Assembly: GCF_000170795.1 (NCBI RefSeq)
Contig: NZ_ABCM01000002.1
Span: forward strand, 62,001 to 126,000
Direction: 5' to 3'
DNA: 64,000 bases
DNA from: Pedobacter sp. BAL39
Lineage (GTDB): Bacteria > Bacteroidota > Bacteroidia > Sphingobacteriales > Sphingobacteriaceae
Shown here: one piece after another, positions 6,927 through 39,867 of the stretch
Numbering within the stretch: position 1 is the first letter of the stretch
Layout: every line of letters begins with the position of its first letter
Program-made: the position numbers and the translations under genes
Notes under the pieces: generated by a model
Databases searched by the model: none
Seen by the model: the letters and a program-made list of their open reading frames with translations, nothing else
Told to the model about the DNA's origin: nothing

Positions 6927-7023
6927 GGTTTTCGGTATTTGTTCGCCACTTGTTCGGGTCTTGTTCGCTTCTCACAAGGGGTTGACAAGGTATTCACAAG
7001 GTGTTCAGATGGCCTGTGTAAGG
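6927..7023. repeat. Inverted array of 11-bp-phased boxes (array 1)
   Basis: The non-coding stretch holds short boxes repeated at an exact 11-nt period. On the left side TTCG recurs at 6931, 6942, 6953 and 6964, with the boxes ATTTGT, ACTTGT and TCTTGT at 6937, 6948 and 6959. On the right side ACAAGG recurs at 6974, 6985 and 6996, followed in phase by the weaker boxes AGATGG (7007) and GTAAGG (7018). The left boxes are approximate reverse complements of the right ones, so the whole is a dyad-symmetric array centred near 6969. The 11-nt spacing places all boxes of one half on the same face of the DNA helix. A second array with the same geometry lies at 8582-8710. Function unknown. Confidence 0.75.
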
Positions 7024-7147
7024 TATAGGGCTATACAAAAACCATAGAAAAGCCGGCTGAATATGTCTTAAAGGGCGAGGGGTACCTTGTCAACCTCCGC
7101 ACTTTATCATGAAAAGGGCATATTGCTTTTTCTTTATTGGATAATGA

Positions 7148-8416
7148 CTATGAAAAATTGGTGGTATCAGAATAATATCGTTCCCTGAAATTTACAGCGG
7201 CATCTAAATATCTCTCTATGGATTCCGAATCCTTATCTGCAGTTTCTTTGGTTGCGAATTCCTTCAGATGGCCCAACTTTAGCAAAGGTCCACAACCAGC
7301 ATCTTTAAACAACTGGTTGAGTTTTTCATTTTTTTCAAAATGATAGGAATTGAAGTCCGGAAGTGTATCTATTTCCATGTATTTTTTATCTTCCTTTACG
7401 ATCCCTAAAAGACGTCCAAGTTTTTCACCTTCAGGCGTATCATTATTGGTTAAAAATAGAAAAGTATGAACTACCAGTTTAGTCCCATGTAATTTTACTA
7501 CCAGATATCCAACTTTTTGATCTGACACCCGGTACTCAACCAGACTATAGTTGCGTTTCCAATGATGAGGTATCTGAGGCTGCATGAAGATTAGGAGTAG
7601 TATCCGATGCATAATGCCAGGGACGATATTTATCCTTTCTTGTAATCTTTTGAGTGTATGTGTGGTAAAGTACAATTCCAATGGAATATCCAGACCTTTG
7701 CGCTCAAAACCCAACAATGACGATTTTACAGCAAAATGTTCCCATTCGAAGTCTGGAGTAAGCCATCCCATGCGTATCACCTTGCGTTTTCCATTGGTGA
7801 CTTCAATATCCTCTACCTCTGGCTTATGGGCATATATGATGATGTCATTATCTGGGTTGAATTTTGCAAAATAGGGTGTCATCGAAACATCAGCATTATA
7901 AATATGATCTTCATAGTCACTCAGAAACCCACATGCATCTGTTGTAAGTTCTCCCAGTATTTGCTGAAGGTACCGATGAAACTCACTGTCATAAGAACAG
8001 AAAGAGAAAGCCTCTTTTATTTCTTCGAACCTGGGACCGTTGGAAATATCAAATTCACCGATACATGCTGATAATGTCATTCCTTCAGAAAGGTACCAGC
8101 TAAGCGGAATTTTATTGCCATTTGGCAACTCGAGCTCCACCTCCTCAATCAGCTTCAACAGCAATTTGTTAAACTGGATGATCTTTGGCTTAGGTATGTT
8201 GGCACCGGGTGCGGATTTGGCTTTTAATACCGGATAACGCACTTCATAAAGTTTTTCCAGAAAAATAGGGGTGAACTTATTCAGCAACACCTCGCCTCCG
8301 ACACGCATGATGATATTTATCGTGCGATCCAGGAATCTTTGTTTTAGTGCCTTACGCTGTTGTTCCACATTGGCTGCAGACTTGGTTGAGGCTTGTTTCT
8401 TTTTCTTTCTGTCCAT
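7148..8416 (-). CDS. Conserved-looking hypothetical protein between two phased repeat arrays
   Basis: A 422-aa, apparently soluble protein that I cannot assign to a family. It begins with a basic, Lys/Gln-rich tail (residues 1-30) that could bind nucleic acid, continues through a mixed alpha/beta region, and has a C-terminal part with 'TTHTLKRLQERI' (about residue 255) and then beta-rich segments 'YSLVEYRV', 'GYLVVKLHG' and 'KLVVHTFLFLTN'. The H-x3-RxxxR pattern followed by beta strands is reminiscent of small RNase-toxin-like folds (BrnT/DUF4258 type), but that is a weak resemblance. The gene stands alone: both flanks are non-coding and contain dyad arrays with 11-bp phasing. The reading frame is long and intact, so it is under coding constraint. 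Confidence 0.7.
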   Translation of the reverse strand: MDRKKKKQASTKSAANVEQQRKALKQRFLDRTINIIMRVGGEVLLNKFTPIFLEKLYEVRYPVLKAKSAPGANIPKPKIIQFNKLLLKLIEEVELELPNGNKIPLSWYLSEGMTLSACIGEFDISNGPRFEEIKEAFSFCSYDSEFHRYLQQILGELTTDACGFLSDYEDHIYNADVSMTPYFAKFNPDNDIIIYAHKPEVEDIEVTNGKRKVIRMGWLTPDFEWEHFAVKSSLLGFERKGLDIPLELYFTTHTLKRLQERINIVPGIMHRILLLIFMQPQIPHHWKRNYSLVEYRVSDQKVGYLVVKLHGTKLVVHTFLFLTNNDTPEGEKLGRLLGIVKEDKKYMEIDTLPDFNSYHFEKNEKLNQLFKDAGCGPLLKLGHLKEFATKETADKDSESIERYLDAAVNFRERYYSDTTNFS

Positions 8417-8581
8417 CTGGATTGAAATTTGGGATCGGCTGGTATAGATAATTCTGTATTCTTAAAACGTTTACAGATGTGGGACCAAAGTAATAAAGTC
8501 AGGGGACTTATCAAAGGAATTTAACCTTCTCTATATGGCTCGCCCGATCGTCGTACACGGGCTACACACGGAAGCAGATTG

Positions 8582-8710
8582 ACCTGGTCTCCACCCGGCC
8601 TAAACCGGGGGTTAACCCGGGGTTGACCTGGTAAAATCGGGGTCTGAGGCCTGCATTTTACCAGGTCGACCCCGGGTAGAGGCCCGGTTTACCCCTTGGA
8701 GAGGCCCGGT
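8582..8710. repeat. Inverted array of 11-bp-phased ACCnGG boxes (array 2)
   Basis: Five boxes on the left half start exactly 11 bp apart: ACCTGG (8582), ACCCGG (8593), ACCGGG (8604), ACCCGG (8615), ACCTGG (8626). The right half mirrors them: CCAGGT (8661), CCGGGT (8672), CCCGGT (8683), a degenerate CCTTGG (8694) and CCCGGT (8705). The three inner pairs are exact reverse complements box by box. The innermost arms (8615-8637 and 8655-8677) pair over 23 bp with one mismatch around a 17-nt centre, so a long hairpin or cruciform could form. Two ACACGG boxes, 11 bp apart, precede the array at 8555 and 8566 but are out of phase with it. The rest of the gap 8417-8920 shows no gene. Confidence 0.85.
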
Positions 8711-8920
8711 TAATCTTAAAGCGTGTCCGAAGGTCGTACTGCATTTGTGCCTTGCGTCAGGTTACTTAGATGTCCGAATTCGTTCAGTAACTGTTCGTAT
8801 TCGCGCACAATATCATTAGAAATTAAATCTATTTGTTGATTTTTGGGCGTTTACGGTGTTTTAGACAAATGGCACATCCTTCGCATCAACCATTATTTAT
8901 ATGTTAAATTGAATGATCTC

Positions 8921-11272
8921 ATGTTTCAACTCAATCTTAAAATCGCGCTCAGAAATCTATGGAAGAGTAAAGGTTATGCTGCCCTTAATATTTTCGGATT
9001 GGCAGTAGGTTTTGCCGGGTTCATCCTGATCCTGCTGTATGCCAACCATGAATATAGCTACGATACCTGGAACCCCGATGCGGATCAGGTTTATAGGATA
9101 GGCGTAAAGGCGGGTGCAGGTCAGGAGGAGTATGCCTCCAATCCTGGTGAGCTTGCCCCTGCATTGAAAAATGCTGCTCCGGAGATTGAGTCTTTTGCGA
9201 GGTATTATACCTGGGACCTCCATCAGCGCCTCCTGACATACGGAGGTAAAGAATTTTATGTCGATCACATCATGGGAGTTGATAGTAGTTGGTTTGCTGC
9301 TTTTCCTTACAAATTTTTATATGGTGACCCGAAGAGGATGCTGATCTCCGCTGATGACATTGTATTGTCGAGTAACATCGCTGAGTTGTATTTTGGTAAA
9401 CAGAACCCTGTGGGCAAGTCGCTGGTGATGAACGGCAAAAAGACCTATATCGTCAGTGGTGTATATGAACAGCCCGAAACTCCTGAACACCTGGATCATG
9501 ATGGTTTTGTCAAGATGTCTTCCCAGGGCGATGGATGGAACAATGGCAATTTTTACAGTTACATCAAAGTTAAAAAAGGGACCGATCTGGCATTGCTCAG
9601 CGAAAAAATCAATCGGGCACTAGTTCATCTGCCAATTACAAAAGACAATCCCTGGATCAAAGACATCAAGATCACGCTTACACCGGTAAAAGACATCTAT
9701 CTTCAGGCTGCGGCGGTGCAGGATCCCGCAAAAAGGGGTAATGCAAAAACAGTAACCATCCTTGTTTTATTTTCGGCATTGCTGTTAGTGATTGCCTGTA
9801 TCAACTTCACCAACTTATCAATTGCGAAGTCGATAAAAAGAGCAAAGGAAACGGGGATCAGAAAGGTGATGGGAGCAGGAAGAGGAAGTCTCGCGACCTA
9901 CTTTCTTACGGAAACAGCCCTTCAATGTATCGTTTCCTTACTGCTCGCACTTGTCATTGCAGAAATTGCTTTACCAGCATTAAATACCGTGATGGACCTT
10001 AACCTGGCCTTGTTCAGTTATTCTTTTCCTGCTATGCTTACAGTTGAAGTACTCGGCGCGTTACTGCTGGTGATATTCTTCTCGGGTGGATATACCGCTT
10101 TTTTCCTGGCTAACTATGATCCGATAAAAGTGCTGAAGGGGAACTTTTCCAGGAGCAACCTGAGCTTATGGTGGCGTAAAACCCTCATTTCTATTCAGTT
10201 TTTGGTGGCTACAGTATTCATCGTATGTCTCCTGATCATCAAGCAGCAGGTCAACTATATGAAAAATAAAGATGTTGGCTTTGACAGGGAACATGTGGCA
10301 ATTTTCAAAATCAGGAAACAGGAAACCAGAGCCAATTTCGCACAGATCAAGGCACGACTTACAAATATACCGGGTGTGAAATCTGTAAGCAGGGTGAACT
10401 ACTTTCCGGGTTCCAATGATATTCAGATAATAGGAAGGGAATTTGATGGTCAGGCTGTTGAAGACCTGAGTGTGGTAACTGTCGATTTTGATTATTTTGA
10501 AGTCATGGGAATTGCTCCCAAATTTGGCAGGATGCCCTCAGTTCAATTTGGTACCGACAGTACCGCCGTGGTGGTGAATGAGGCTGCGGTTAAGAAGTAT
10601 GGTTTGCAAAAACTGATTGGTCACAAATGGATTGACAACCGCACCATTGTGGGTGTAGTGAAAGACCAGGTTCAGAGTGGTATGGAAAAGAATACAGATC
10701 CTACTGCGTTTATGATCGAAAGTAAGGGCACTAATGGAGCCAATCATGTAGTCGTAAAGATCGAAAGCAATAATGTGCAGCAGACCATTGCTCAGATAAA
10801 AGCGACCTGGGAATCCATAGAGCCTTTTCCTTTTCAGTTTAACTGGCTGGACCAGACTTTCGAGCAGATCTACGTACAATATATCCGCCTGGATAAAATA
10901 TTCAACATCTTCACTTATGTCACTATTGCACTGGCGATTATAGGCCTTTTCGCCTTAGCGTCTTTTACAGTTCAGGAACGTACCCGTGAAATTGGGGTAA
11001 GAAAGGTTTTGGGAGCTGATACGAGCGAAATCCTGAAATTGATCAATGGTGGCTTTTTGGTGTTGGTGCTCTCTGCAAATGTGATTGCTATACCTGTAGC
11101 CTATATTTTGTCCAGAAACTGGCTCAATGGTTTCGCATTCCGGACGTCGATTACCGTATGGCCTTTTGTCATCGCGGTTGTGGTTTCCATTATGATTACC
11201 CTGATTACCGTCAGCCTGCAGGCATATCGTGCCGCAAAGGCAAATCCTGTTGATGCATTGAAATACGAGTAG
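8921..11272 (+). CDS. MacB/FtsX-type ABC transporter permease
   Basis: A 783-aa inner-membrane protein with the two-module layout common in Bacteroidota: TM1 (about residues 20-42), a MacB periplasmic core domain, an FtsX domain with three TM segments containing 'GIRKVMGAGRGSLATYFLTE', a second periplasmic domain, and a C-terminal FtsX domain with 'REIGVRKVLGADTSEIL'. MacB-like proteins use ATP hydrolysed by a partner protein for mechanotransmission across the periplasm rather than direct substrate passage. No ATPase gene is adjacent, so the partner must be elsewhere. I choose ATG 8921 (MFQLNLKIALRNLWKSKGY is the family-typical start) rather than the GTG/ATG-rich upstream extension at 8843. 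The gene starts 210 bp after repeat array 2. Confidence 0.92.
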   Translation: MFQLNLKIALRNLWKSKGYAALNIFGLAVGFAGFILILLYANHEYSYDTWNPDADQVYRIGVKAGAGQEEYASNPGELAPALKNAAPEIESFARYYTWDLHQRLLTYGGKEFYVDHIMGVDSSWFAAFPYKFLYGDPKRMLISADDIVLSSNIAELYFGKQNPVGKSLVMNGKKTYIVSGVYEQPETPEHLDHDGFVKMSSQGDGWNNGNFYSYIKVKKGTDLALLSEKINRALVHLPITKDNPWIKDIKITLTPVKDIYLQAAAVQDPAKRGNAKTVTILVLFSALLLVIACINFTNLSIAKSIKRAKETGIRKVMGAGRGSLATYFLTETALQCIVSLLLALVIAEIALPALNTVMDLNLALFSYSFPAMLTVEVLGALLLVIFFSGGYTAFFLANYDPIKVLKGNFSRSNLSLWWRKTLISIQFLVATVFIVCLLIIKQQVNYMKNKDVGFDREHVAIFKIRKQETRANFAQIKARLTNIPGVKSVSRVNYFPGSNDIQIIGREFDGQAVEDLSVVTVDFDYFEVMGIAPKFGRMPSVQFGTDSTAVVVNEAAVKKYGLQKLIGHKWIDNRTIVGVVKDQVQSGMEKNTDPTAFMIESKGTNGANHVVVKIESNNVQQTIAQIKATWESIEPFPFQFNWLDQTFEQIYVQYIRLDKIFNIFTYVTIALAIIGLFALASFTVQERTREIGVRKVLGADTSEILKLINGGFLVLVLSANVIAIPVAYILSRNWLNGFAFRTSITVWPFVIAVVVSIMITLITVSLQAYRAAKANPVDALKYE

Positions 11273-18040: not shown

Positions 18041-19849
18041 ATGGAATTGAAAACTGTTATAGAGCTGGAGGTCGATGGAACCCCAATTATTCATTTTAAC
18101 AACTTTAAACTGATTCAAAAATTCAACAGCCACCATGAATTCGAACTTTCGATCAATTACGATGTAATTGAAGCCAGTGGGAACATCAAACTCGGTGAAG
18201 CCCAGCGTTGGATTGGTGCTGTATTCACAGCAAGCTTCAATTCCGGTCAGAATAACTTCCGTGGGATTGTATGCGAAGTGAGCCTGTCACAACAGCATGG
18301 TTTGCGTTCCAATATCATTGTTAAAGGTTTTTCTACTTCCATTGTGCTTGAGTCAGGACCCAAACTGCAGTCATTCAATGAGAAGAAACTCGATGAAATC
18401 GTTAAAAAGGTAGCTGAGAAATGTATGCAGGGGCAGTGTGAGCTGAGTGCCAAAGCAAGTTACCAGGATCAGATTGGGTATCAGACACAGTTTAAGGAAA
18501 GCGACTTTGGTTTCATCAACCGGCTCTCATTTGAGTATGGAGAATGGTTTTACTATGACGGTGTTAACCTTTGCTTCGGTAAGCCGGACAAACTTCCTGA
18601 AGTGGAACTCACACTTGGAAGGAACCTTTCTGTCCTCAATTCCGCGGTGAGGGTATTGCCGATGCAGTTCTCCAATTACAGCTATCAGTCTTCAACGGAT
18701 GATTTACTCGATGGCAAAGCGGAAGGCAGCAATAGCATGAGCAACAGCTACATTGATACGGCCATCTCGCGCTCTAAAGAGGTATTCAGCTCTAGCTCCA
18801 ACTTGCCTGTTAAGCCCAGGACCATCAATAAACAGCAACTGGATACCTTGGGTAATAGCCGCCAGGCAGGTATCGCCGCCGGACTAACGGATGTTCATGG
18901 TGAAAGTACTGTTGCAGCACTTGCCATTGGCAGCATTGCAGACATTCAGGTGTCCATAAGAGAGGGGCTGGCGAGCTTCAATCAGCAGTCGCTTGACAAA
19001 TACCTCATCACCGAAATAACCCATGAGATCGACGGCCTGTCCCGTTATAAAAATACTTTTAAAGGAGTTCCTGCAGATACATCCGTCATACCCAGCACTC
19101 CCTATCTGACGCCAATTGCGGAAGCTCAGGTAGCTACAGTTAAAGAAAACCTCGATCCTGAGAATAAAGGTCGCGTGCGTGTACAGATGTTATGGCAACA
19201 ACACAATGACATGACCGATTGGATCCGCGTGCTGACGCCGGATGGTGGCAGCAGCGACCTGATCAGTCAGAATAGGGGCTACGTATTTGTGCCCGAAATT
19301 GGCGACCAGGTGATCCTTGGCTTCCGGTACAATGACCCCAATCGTCCATTTGTGATGGGTAGCGTGTTTCATGGGCGTACAGCGGCGGGTGGATATGAGC
19401 AAAACCACCTGAAGAGCATCACCACGCGCAGTGGTCACCTCATTGAGTTTGACGATGACCAAGAAACACAGGGGATTACCATCCGCGACCACAACAGCAA
19501 CAAAATACACATCGATACCAAAGGGAATAACATTACGGTGACTGCTCTGGAGACCATGACCTTCAATGCGAAAAATCTGAACATCAATGTCCAGGAAGAT
19601 ATGACCGTAAACGTCAACCGCAACATGATCACTCAGGTGACGCAAGGCAATAAAATCAATGTAGGGAAGCAATATGAGCTGTTTGCGGACAACATTAAGT
19701 CGGAGGCAACCAACAATTATGTCGTCAATGCAAAGAAAGTTGACAAAACTGCCGATCATGTCAACATCAATAGTAAAGCTGAAAATCTGACCCTGTTTTC
19801 TGGAAAATCGGTGGTGTCAAAAAGTGTTGAAAAGAACAAACTCTTCTAA
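18041..19849 (+). CDS. vgrG: VgrG-type secretion spike protein
   Basis: A 602-aa VgrG homologue, the trimeric spike at the tip of type VI secretion (or related contractile) systems. Residues 1-350 form the gp27-like base. Residues about 366-450 form the gp5-like OB-fold ('NKGRVRVQMLWQQ', 'GGSSDLISQNRGYVFVPEIG' and 'NRPFVMGSVFHG'). A beta-helix needle follows ('SGHLIEFDDDQETQGITIRD', then 'NNITVTALETMTFNAKNLNI' and similar strands). There is no C-terminal effector extension. It opens a six-gene run and its stop overlaps the next start by one base (TAATG), so translation is probably coupled. No TssB, TssC, Hcp or ClpV genes are in the window. Confidence 0.93.
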   Translation: MELKTVIELEVDGTPIIHFNNFKLIQKFNSHHEFELSINYDVIEASGNIKLGEAQRWIGAVFTASFNSGQNNFRGIVCEVSLSQQHGLRSNIIVKGFSTSIVLESGPKLQSFNEKKLDEIVKKVAEKCMQGQCELSAKASYQDQIGYQTQFKESDFGFINRLSFEYGEWFYYDGVNLCFGKPDKLPEVELTLGRNLSVLNSAVRVLPMQFSNYSYQSSTDDLLDGKAEGSNSMSNSYIDTAISRSKEVFSSSSNLPVKPRTINKQQLDTLGNSRQAGIAAGLTDVHGESTVAALAIGSIADIQVSIREGLASFNQQSLDKYLITEITHEIDGLSRYKNTFKGVPADTSVIPSTPYLTPIAEAQVATVKENLDPENKGRVRVQMLWQQHNDMTDWIRVLTPDGGSSDLISQNRGYVFVPEIGDQVILGFRYNDPNRPFVMGSVFHGRTAAGGYEQNHLKSITTRSGHLIEFDDDQETQGITIRDHNSNKIHIDTKGNNITVTALETMTFNAKNLNINVQEDMTVNVNRNMITQVTQGNKINVGKQYELFADNIKSEATNNYVVNAKKVDKTADHVNINSKAENLTLFSGKSVVSKSVEKNKLF

Positions 19850-36327: not shown

Positions 36328-36352
36328 TTGACCGGTAGAAAATAAGTCACCA

Positions 36353-36710
36353 GTTGCAATTGGCCGCAAAATCCGGTCTTTGCAACTGGTTAAAATCAAC
36401 CACCTCTTATACTTGGCTTCAAATAAATAACCTGTTGCAATTGGTTTCGAAAGCTTGCTTCTGCAACTGGTTCAAAACAAACCACCTTTTACACTTGGCT
36501 TCAAATAAATAACCTGTTGCAATAGCTTCAAAAGCTGGCTTCTACAACTGGTTCAAAATCAACCACCTCTTACACTTGGCTTCAAATAGATAACCTTTGC
36601 AATTGGCTTCGAAAGCTTGCTTCTACAACTGGTTCAAAACAAACCACCTTTCTCAACCGACTTCAAAAATGTCTGTTGCATCTGGATTCAAAAAATGCCT
36701 TTGGCGACCG
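36353..36710. repeat. Tandem repeat, about 81-bp unit, four units plus partial
   Basis: Units start at 36353, 36434, 36516, 36597 and (partial, diverged) 36675, giving lengths of 81, 82, 81 and 78 bp. Each unit contains GTTGCAATTGG, GCTTCAACTGG-like 'TGCAACTGGTT', 'AACCACCT' and 'ACTTGGCTTCAAATA'. The first unit with its upstream base pairs (ACCAGTTGCAA at 36349, TTGCAACTGGT at 36380) could form an 11-bp hairpin. There are no unique spacers, so it is not a CRISPR array, and no ORF spans it. It fills the gap between ddl and the convergent DUF3575 gene; the remaining bases (36328-36352 and 36711-36783) show nothing else. Confidence 0.85.
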
Positions 36711-39410: not shown

Positions 39411-39455
39411 TGCTAAATGCTAAATGCTAAATGCTAAATGCTAAATGCTAAATGC
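39411..39455. repeat. 7-bp tandem repeat TGCTAAA, six copies
   Basis: Six exact copies of TGCTAAA plus a partial TGC run from 39411 to 39455. The stop codon of the minus-strand thioesterase gene (39448-39450) is inside the array, so its length does not affect the protein frame beyond the last residues. Confidence 0.9.
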
Positions 39456-39867
39456 TGTAAGCGCTGATCATTTCCGGCGTCACTTTACAGCCCTTACCGC
39501 TGCTGATGTCGATCATCACATAATCAAACCAGCCATCAGCAGCTACCTTATTTGTTCTCTTAATGATAATTTCAAACTGGACCCTGCAGCCCTTATCATT
39601 AATCGTCAGGATGCCCGTTCTGACCAGGGCAGTATCCCCCAGGATCATCGGTCTTTTGAAATCGACCATTGCCGTACGCACCACCCATCCGAAGCCGCTT
39701 TTCAGGAAAGATTCCATTGGCATTTTATAGAACTCTGCCATCTGGTCATACCTTGCAGAAAGCACGTAATCAAAGTATTTGCTGTTGTGCACATGGTTGA
39801 ACATGTCAATGTCGTCGGGTCTGACTTTAAGCTCGCTTTCGAATATACTGTATTGGGTCTTTTCCAT
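39448..39867 (-). CDS. Acyl-CoA thioesterase (4HBT, hot-dog fold)
   Basis: A 139-aa hot-dog-fold protein with 'VRPDDIDMFNHVHNSKYFDY', the NHVxN-type active-site segment seen in acyl-CoA or acyl-ACP thioesterases, and 'ARYDQMAEFYKM'. I choose the ATG at 39867 (MEKTQYSIFESEL). A longer in-frame start at 39930 would add 21 residues unlike the family and would overlap the rpsO promoter. The substrate is unknown. The stop codon lies inside a 7-bp tandem repeat. Confidence 0.9.
   Translation of the reverse strand: MEKTQYSIFESELKVRPDDIDMFNHVHNSKYFDYVLSARYDQMAEFYKMPMESFLKSGFGWVVRTAMVDFKRPMILGDTALVRTGILTINDKGCRVQFEIIIKRTNKVAADGWFDYVMIDISSGKGCKVTPEMISAYSI

Follow-up and report, generated by a model that had tools for sequence, protein, structure and literature searches.

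A species-specific, dispersed intergenic repeat with an 11-bp-phased, one-turn dyad architecture in Pedobacter sp. BAL39

Introduction

In Pedobacter sp. BAL39 a gap of roughly 500 bp between two divergent genes holds an element composed of two inverted arrays of 11-bp units arranged around a dyad. This raises the question of what kind of element it is, whether it is confined to this locus, and what role it might have. A first-pass annotation of the same DNA had proposed a multi-protomer protein-binding platform, a long cruciform or a transposition end. Here we address these possibilities by analyzing the element in the window (the whole 64,000-nucleotide stretch of DNA under study), in the remainder of the BAL39 genome and in other Pedobacter species.

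Results

The element and the genes that flank it are as follows.

7148-8416, minus strand: gene for a 422-aa protein with no Pfam family, flanking the element
8557-8732, no strand assigned: whole dyad repeat, a copy of family 1, about 176 bp with ends uncertain by a few bases and a centre near 8646 (from gapless alignment with the C45 and C38 copies, the common dyad centre and the termini)
8582-8631, plus strand: left array, in which five ACCnGG boxes follow one another in steps of exactly 11 bp (pattern search, unit comparison)
8632-8660, no strand assigned: 29-bp centre between the arrays, with a 17-nt unpaired stretch (8638-8654) inside
8661-8710, minus strand: right array, inverted CCnGGT boxes at 11-bp steps, the fourth degenerate (pattern search, unit comparison)
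8843-11272, plus strand: FtsX/MacB-type permease ORF, flanking the element

The 11-bp array of ACCnGG boxes with mirrored CCnGGT boxes that the first-pass annotation had described was correct in both positions and sequences. The left boxes read ACCTGG (8582), ACCCGG (8593), ACCGGG (8604), ACCCGG (8615) and ACCTGG (8626), and the right boxes read CCAGGT (8661), CCGGGT (8672), CCCGGT (8683), CCTTGG (8694, degenerate) and CCCGGT (8705). When up to three mismatches are allowed the five-box pattern is found at one place in the 64-kb window, and a check of its chance frequency gave no five-box match in any of 100 shuffled sequences. The mean pairwise identity of the 11-bp units is 0.51, and the highest value reached by any of 2000 dinucleotide shuffles is 0.41; the other periods covered by this unit-identity test (8, 9, 10, 12 and 13) gave background values only. 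The arms of the dyad, which are 62 nt each, 77% complementary and 17 nt apart, are longer than originally described; the inner pairing, for which 23 bp with one mismatch had been reported, holds in essence, with 22 of 24 positions matching.

In regards to the surroundings of the element, no terminator-like site (GC-rich stem plus T run) and no convincing promoter or terminator were found around it. An intrinsic terminator is rejected on this ground and by the divergence of the flanking genes. These observations, together with the presence of three copies in the genome, uphold the earlier view that neither a terminator nor a single operator accounts for the array. Elsewhere in the window there is a VgrG-like gene (18041-19849) with Phage_GPD and Phage_base_V domains, which is probably part of a cluster for type VI secretion or a related injection system, as well as an 81-bp-unit tandem repeat of 3.8 copies (36340-36649) and a perfect TGCTAAA heptamer array of 6.6 copies (39411-39456).

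The first-pass annotation could not have seen that this element is dispersed, nor that arrays phased at 11 bp occur repeatedly in the genus Pedobacter. Family 1 has three intergenic copies in the BAL39 genome, located in the window, at C45:256182-256336 and at C38:180484-180619. Copy counts in this genome derive from samples and targeted searches. A search of 145 other Pedobacter genomes found no copy, and a phage or plasmid origin is rejected on the basis that records of such elements gave no match. The three copies are 63-75% identical among themselves, with the window copy showing 75% identity to the C45 copy over 142 bp and 64% to the C38 copy. Both of these alignments are gapless over 150 bp, and the best alignment of C45 with C38 has two balanced gaps. 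Between corresponding termini all three copies measure 176 bp, and around their common dyad centre 84%, 71% and 74% of arm positions are pairable, relative to at most 65% around any other centre. They lie upstream of genes, and these neighbors are unrelated from copy to copy. The window element is a genuine repeat that is dispersed, non-coding and specific to this species, and its one-turn architecture is unusual. Relatives of the flanking 422-aa protein were found exclusively in Pedobacter (60-68% protein identity), and gene order around them is not kept, with no syntenic copy of the region. Presence of the element or an empty site thus cannot be read at orthologous loci, and the paralogous copies within the same genome are the nearest stand-in for that comparison.

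A copy of a second, unrelated phased family lies 1.6 kb from the family 1 element.

6931-7098, plus strand: copy of family 2, which is likewise phased at 11 bp and is dispersed over the genome in 13 copies

The family 2 units, TTGTTCGG and CACAAGGTGTT, differ from those of family 1 and are also phased at 11 bp. Its genome copies are 74-100% identical to the window copy, and a 146-bp core is constant in 12 of the 13, the thirteenth being longer by exactly one 11-bp unit. Searches of other Pedobacter genomes found no family 2 copy, and the copies in BAL39 show no consistent target duplication. Half of the classifiable copies (6 of 12) occupy convergent gaps, as compared to 16 of 134 among gaps of 200 bp or more. 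This preference is absent in families 1 and 3, so no single positional rule applies to the phased families.

We also scanned 864 kb of the BAL39 genome for sequence periods. At period 11, six intergenic arrays are conspicuous (score of at least 0.485), nothing comparable was found at periods 12-17, and periods 8-9 gave similar scores, more often and over shorter stretches. No array scored above 0.5 in the smaller samples taken from other families and from another genus. Within Pedobacter, single phased hairpins are present in other species, and three related species share a non-coding MITE of about 900 bp with 22-bp terminal inverted repeats, GGATCAAGTCATAAACTTGTGG. This element (L014, L022, L027, L008, L028) has about 12-15 copies per genome, with clear 8-bp target duplications at three copies. 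It holds an 11-bp ACCCGGACAGT array that is internal rather than terminal; in one copy this array is longer by a single 11-bp unit, and the element also has a separate 10-bp array that varies as well. A third phased family, with AAGGTCATTCC units, is common to two of these species (G019 and G013), where one orthologous locus differs between the species by exactly one 11-bp unit. At three G019 loci (L201, L204, L207) family 3 copies lie about 830 bp upstream of the 16S start motif, the hairpin being near 1549 and the motif near 2377-2413. Overall, length changes inside the 11-bp arrays of these other families are whole units, and the unit length is identical across phased families whose unit sequences are unrelated. 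An 11-bp-periodic intergenic stretch that is 77% conserved between two Pedobacter species (L047 near 8690, L048 near 10676) was also observed, and may be regulatory. In a limited literature search, we found no earlier account of palindromic repeats phased at 11 bp in Pedobacter. PMC4679880 describes heptamer direct repeats, which are different from the arrays seen here.

We also compared the layout of family 1 with that of a gyrase site. The E. coli gyrase motif is symmetric and 130 bp long, with a 36-bp centre (-16 to +19) and two 47-bp flanks that have a 10.75-bp GC periodicity, and gyrase cleavage sites are over-represented in BIME-2 elements (PMC6379681). A GC template of this geometry, with free phase, was scored at about 860,000 positions. 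With a period of 10.75 the C45 copy takes the first rank and the window copy the fourth, and the score of the C38 copy is high as well. With periods of 9 or 13.5 the window and C45 copies are not picked out. The symmetric GC phasing of about 10.75 bp around a centre is thus present in the element, which falls within the top 1.3e-5 of positions, the C45 copy being within the top 1.2e-6. This result is partly circular because the boxes are GC-rich by definition. A continuous, unmirrored phase scores as well as the mirrored template. Strong GC phasing is seen in all family 1 copies and in the G012 and G029 arrays, and it is weak in family 3, L049, L044, L156 and the G023 element.

Discussion

A multi-protomer protein-binding platform, one of the roles suggested at the outset, is the leading functional reading of this element, as a candidate role. 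Specifically, we give a probability of about 0.35 to a BIME- or MITE-like dispersed repeat that would act as DNA, serving as a platform on one helical face for a protein that oligomerizes or wraps DNA, with DNA gyrase as the first candidate. The arrays, the dyad, the copies, their common spacing and the recurrence within the genus are observed, and from there we infer protein binding, gyrase as its putative agent and selection on spacing. The element would work as double-stranded DNA, with each 11-bp unit corresponding to one turn such that similar GC-rich boxes would fall on one face of the helix, and an oligomeric or wrapping protein would hold both arms around a fixed centre of about 30 bp. 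Gyrase is the first candidate binder of family 1 because the 50-29-50 bp layout resembles the published 47-36-47 bp motif. If gyrase does bind, the element would be functionally analogous to BIME-2, an intergenic palindrome to which gyrase binds. A long cruciform is also possible, given that the same dyad axis is kept in all three copies.

Rather unlikely, in our estimate, is a non-autonomous transposon (MITE) in which the phased units would be repeated transposase-binding sites and the transposase would be encoded elsewhere. Bacterial MITEs and imperfect-palindrome repeats such as ERIC, RUP and Correia are short, non-coding and dispersed with imperfect inverted termini, and family 1 resembles them in these respects, as regards the termini at some of its ends only. 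Three features at its ends are relevant.

8550-8556, no strand assigned: left-hand GTCGTAC of a candidate target-site duplication (weak, with a chance probability of about 3%)
8710-8732, minus strand: terminus CTTCGGACACGCTTTAAGATTAA in the minus-strand reading, partly common to the C45 and C38 copies (terminus comparison)
8733-8739, no strand assigned: right-hand GTCGTAC of the candidate target-site duplication (equally weak, with a chance probability of about 3%)

Some family 1 ends resemble imperfect inverted CTTCGGACACG-TTTAAGATTAAC and others do not. The 7-bp flanking match, expected in about 3% of random placements, is confined to the window copy, with no target duplication at the C45 or C38 copies. 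A transposition end in the sense first proposed is therefore not supported; the element is a whole small repeat. Dispersal of families 1 and 2 is as a MITE would predict, as is the presence of a phased array in the relatives' 900-bp element with its inverted ends and 8-bp duplications. However, that array is not at the ends of the element, target duplications are not consistent in family 2, and a search with a 28-base terminus pattern (up to three mismatches) found only two matches, both of them known copies, with shorter end matches escaping such a pattern. Furthermore, to our knowledge an 11-bp-phased inverted array as the body of the element is not known in the ERIC, RUP, Correia or MITE families.

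Absence of a Y1 transposase from the genome also argues against mobilization of this kind. REPs of enterobacteria are 20-40 bp long and are spread by RAYT Y1 transposases. The family 1 element is likewise intergenic, palindromic, dispersed and non-coding, as seen in its three intergenic copies with a common dyad, and shares with BIME-2/REP a possible gyrase link. In contrast to REPs it is 176 bp long with 11-bp units and has far fewer copies (3), and a search of the BAL39 genome for RAYT (Y1_Tnp, PF01797) gave no match while positive controls matched, so a RAYT/REP system is rejected. The element thus belongs with intergenic palindromic repeats, and no single known family has all of its tested defining features present here.

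That the repeat is a selfish or neutral palindrome, functionless and growing by slippage of 11-bp units, we regard as improbable. Length changes of whole units, the species-specificity of the families and the pairing of family 1, which fits the decay of an originally perfect palindrome, would all follow from it. However, slippage alone fails to predict one unit length across unrelated families, and there are no small indels between the window copy and either of the other family 1 copies at 25-36% divergence.

A lower likelihood still is assigned to a transcribed RNA hairpin, in which a long stem would present repeated contacts to a dsRNA-binding protein and serve as an sRNA, a leader or an mRNA stabilizer. 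An A-form duplex has 11 bp per turn, and the predicted folds of the window element are strong on both strands (-94 kcal/mol, z -7.1, plus; -79 kcal/mol, z -5.2, minus). Covariation is seen at four pairs in the family 3 stem and at one pair in 5 of the 13 family 2 copies. Evidence against an RNA role is that parts of the family 2 array lie outside any strong stem, that no convincing promoter or terminator is nearby, and that in family 1 the comparison of window with C45 shows 0 double changes and 15 broken pairs. In C38, however, 5-6 double changes are seen. A known structured RNA is also rejected, as the window has nothing at the Rfam gathering score except one tRNA; sub-threshold matches of the element are to microRNA-precursor models only, as for a generic hairpin.

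Finally, an operator of an OmpR/PhoB-type response regulator is very improbable. These regulators bind direct repeats at 11-bp steps, the 6+5 spacing fits pho-box-like direct repeats and the window copy lies between divergent genes. However, ten boxes in a dyad far exceed the usual operator, the only three copies are beside unrelated genes, and other families keep 11 bp with changed box sequences.

Returning to the one-face platform, the common unit length, the lack of small indels in the window-copy alignments and the unrestored pairs in C45 point to duplex register more than to an exact hairpin. This case is not strong, because three copies are few, slippage explains whole-unit indels, and the four-pair covariation favors pairing in family 3. 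The frequent C-G exchanges between the window and C45 copies (14 of 39, with a base composition that differs from the comparison set) are only a hint of agreement with a conserved GC pattern. Gyrase is our hypothesis for family 1, and it does not explain the whole class because GC phasing is weak in several phased families. Gyrase sites are usually downstream of genes; the upstream location of family 1 speaks against gyrase. The gyrase motif is also degenerate, whereas the boxes of the element are sequence-repeated with a period of 11.0 and a 29-bp rather than a 36-bp centre; the likeness is in the symmetric phased GC variation over about 130 bp (PMC6379681). Bacterial genomes have a general 10-11 bp sequence periodicity that is strong in intergenic DNA and linked to supercoiled DNA (PMC516772, PMC4132750). 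That periodicity is a weak statistical bias, whereas the element is a near-exact array of similar period in a discrete unit.

More broadly, and only tentatively, Pedobacter may have a class of fast-evolving intergenic elements in which unit sequence is free and unit length equals one turn, such that they would be selected for helical register, as a platform for protein wrapping or supercoiling, and not for sequence. If register rather than sequence is what is kept, then these elements would lend themselves to testing how gyrase or another DNA-wrapping protein is positioned at particular intergenic sites in bacteria outside of the enterobacteria, and the one-turn dyad array would be a simple signature by which to find sites of this kind in further genomes. 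Should they be no more than selfish palindromes, their evolution in whole helical turns would still be unusual.
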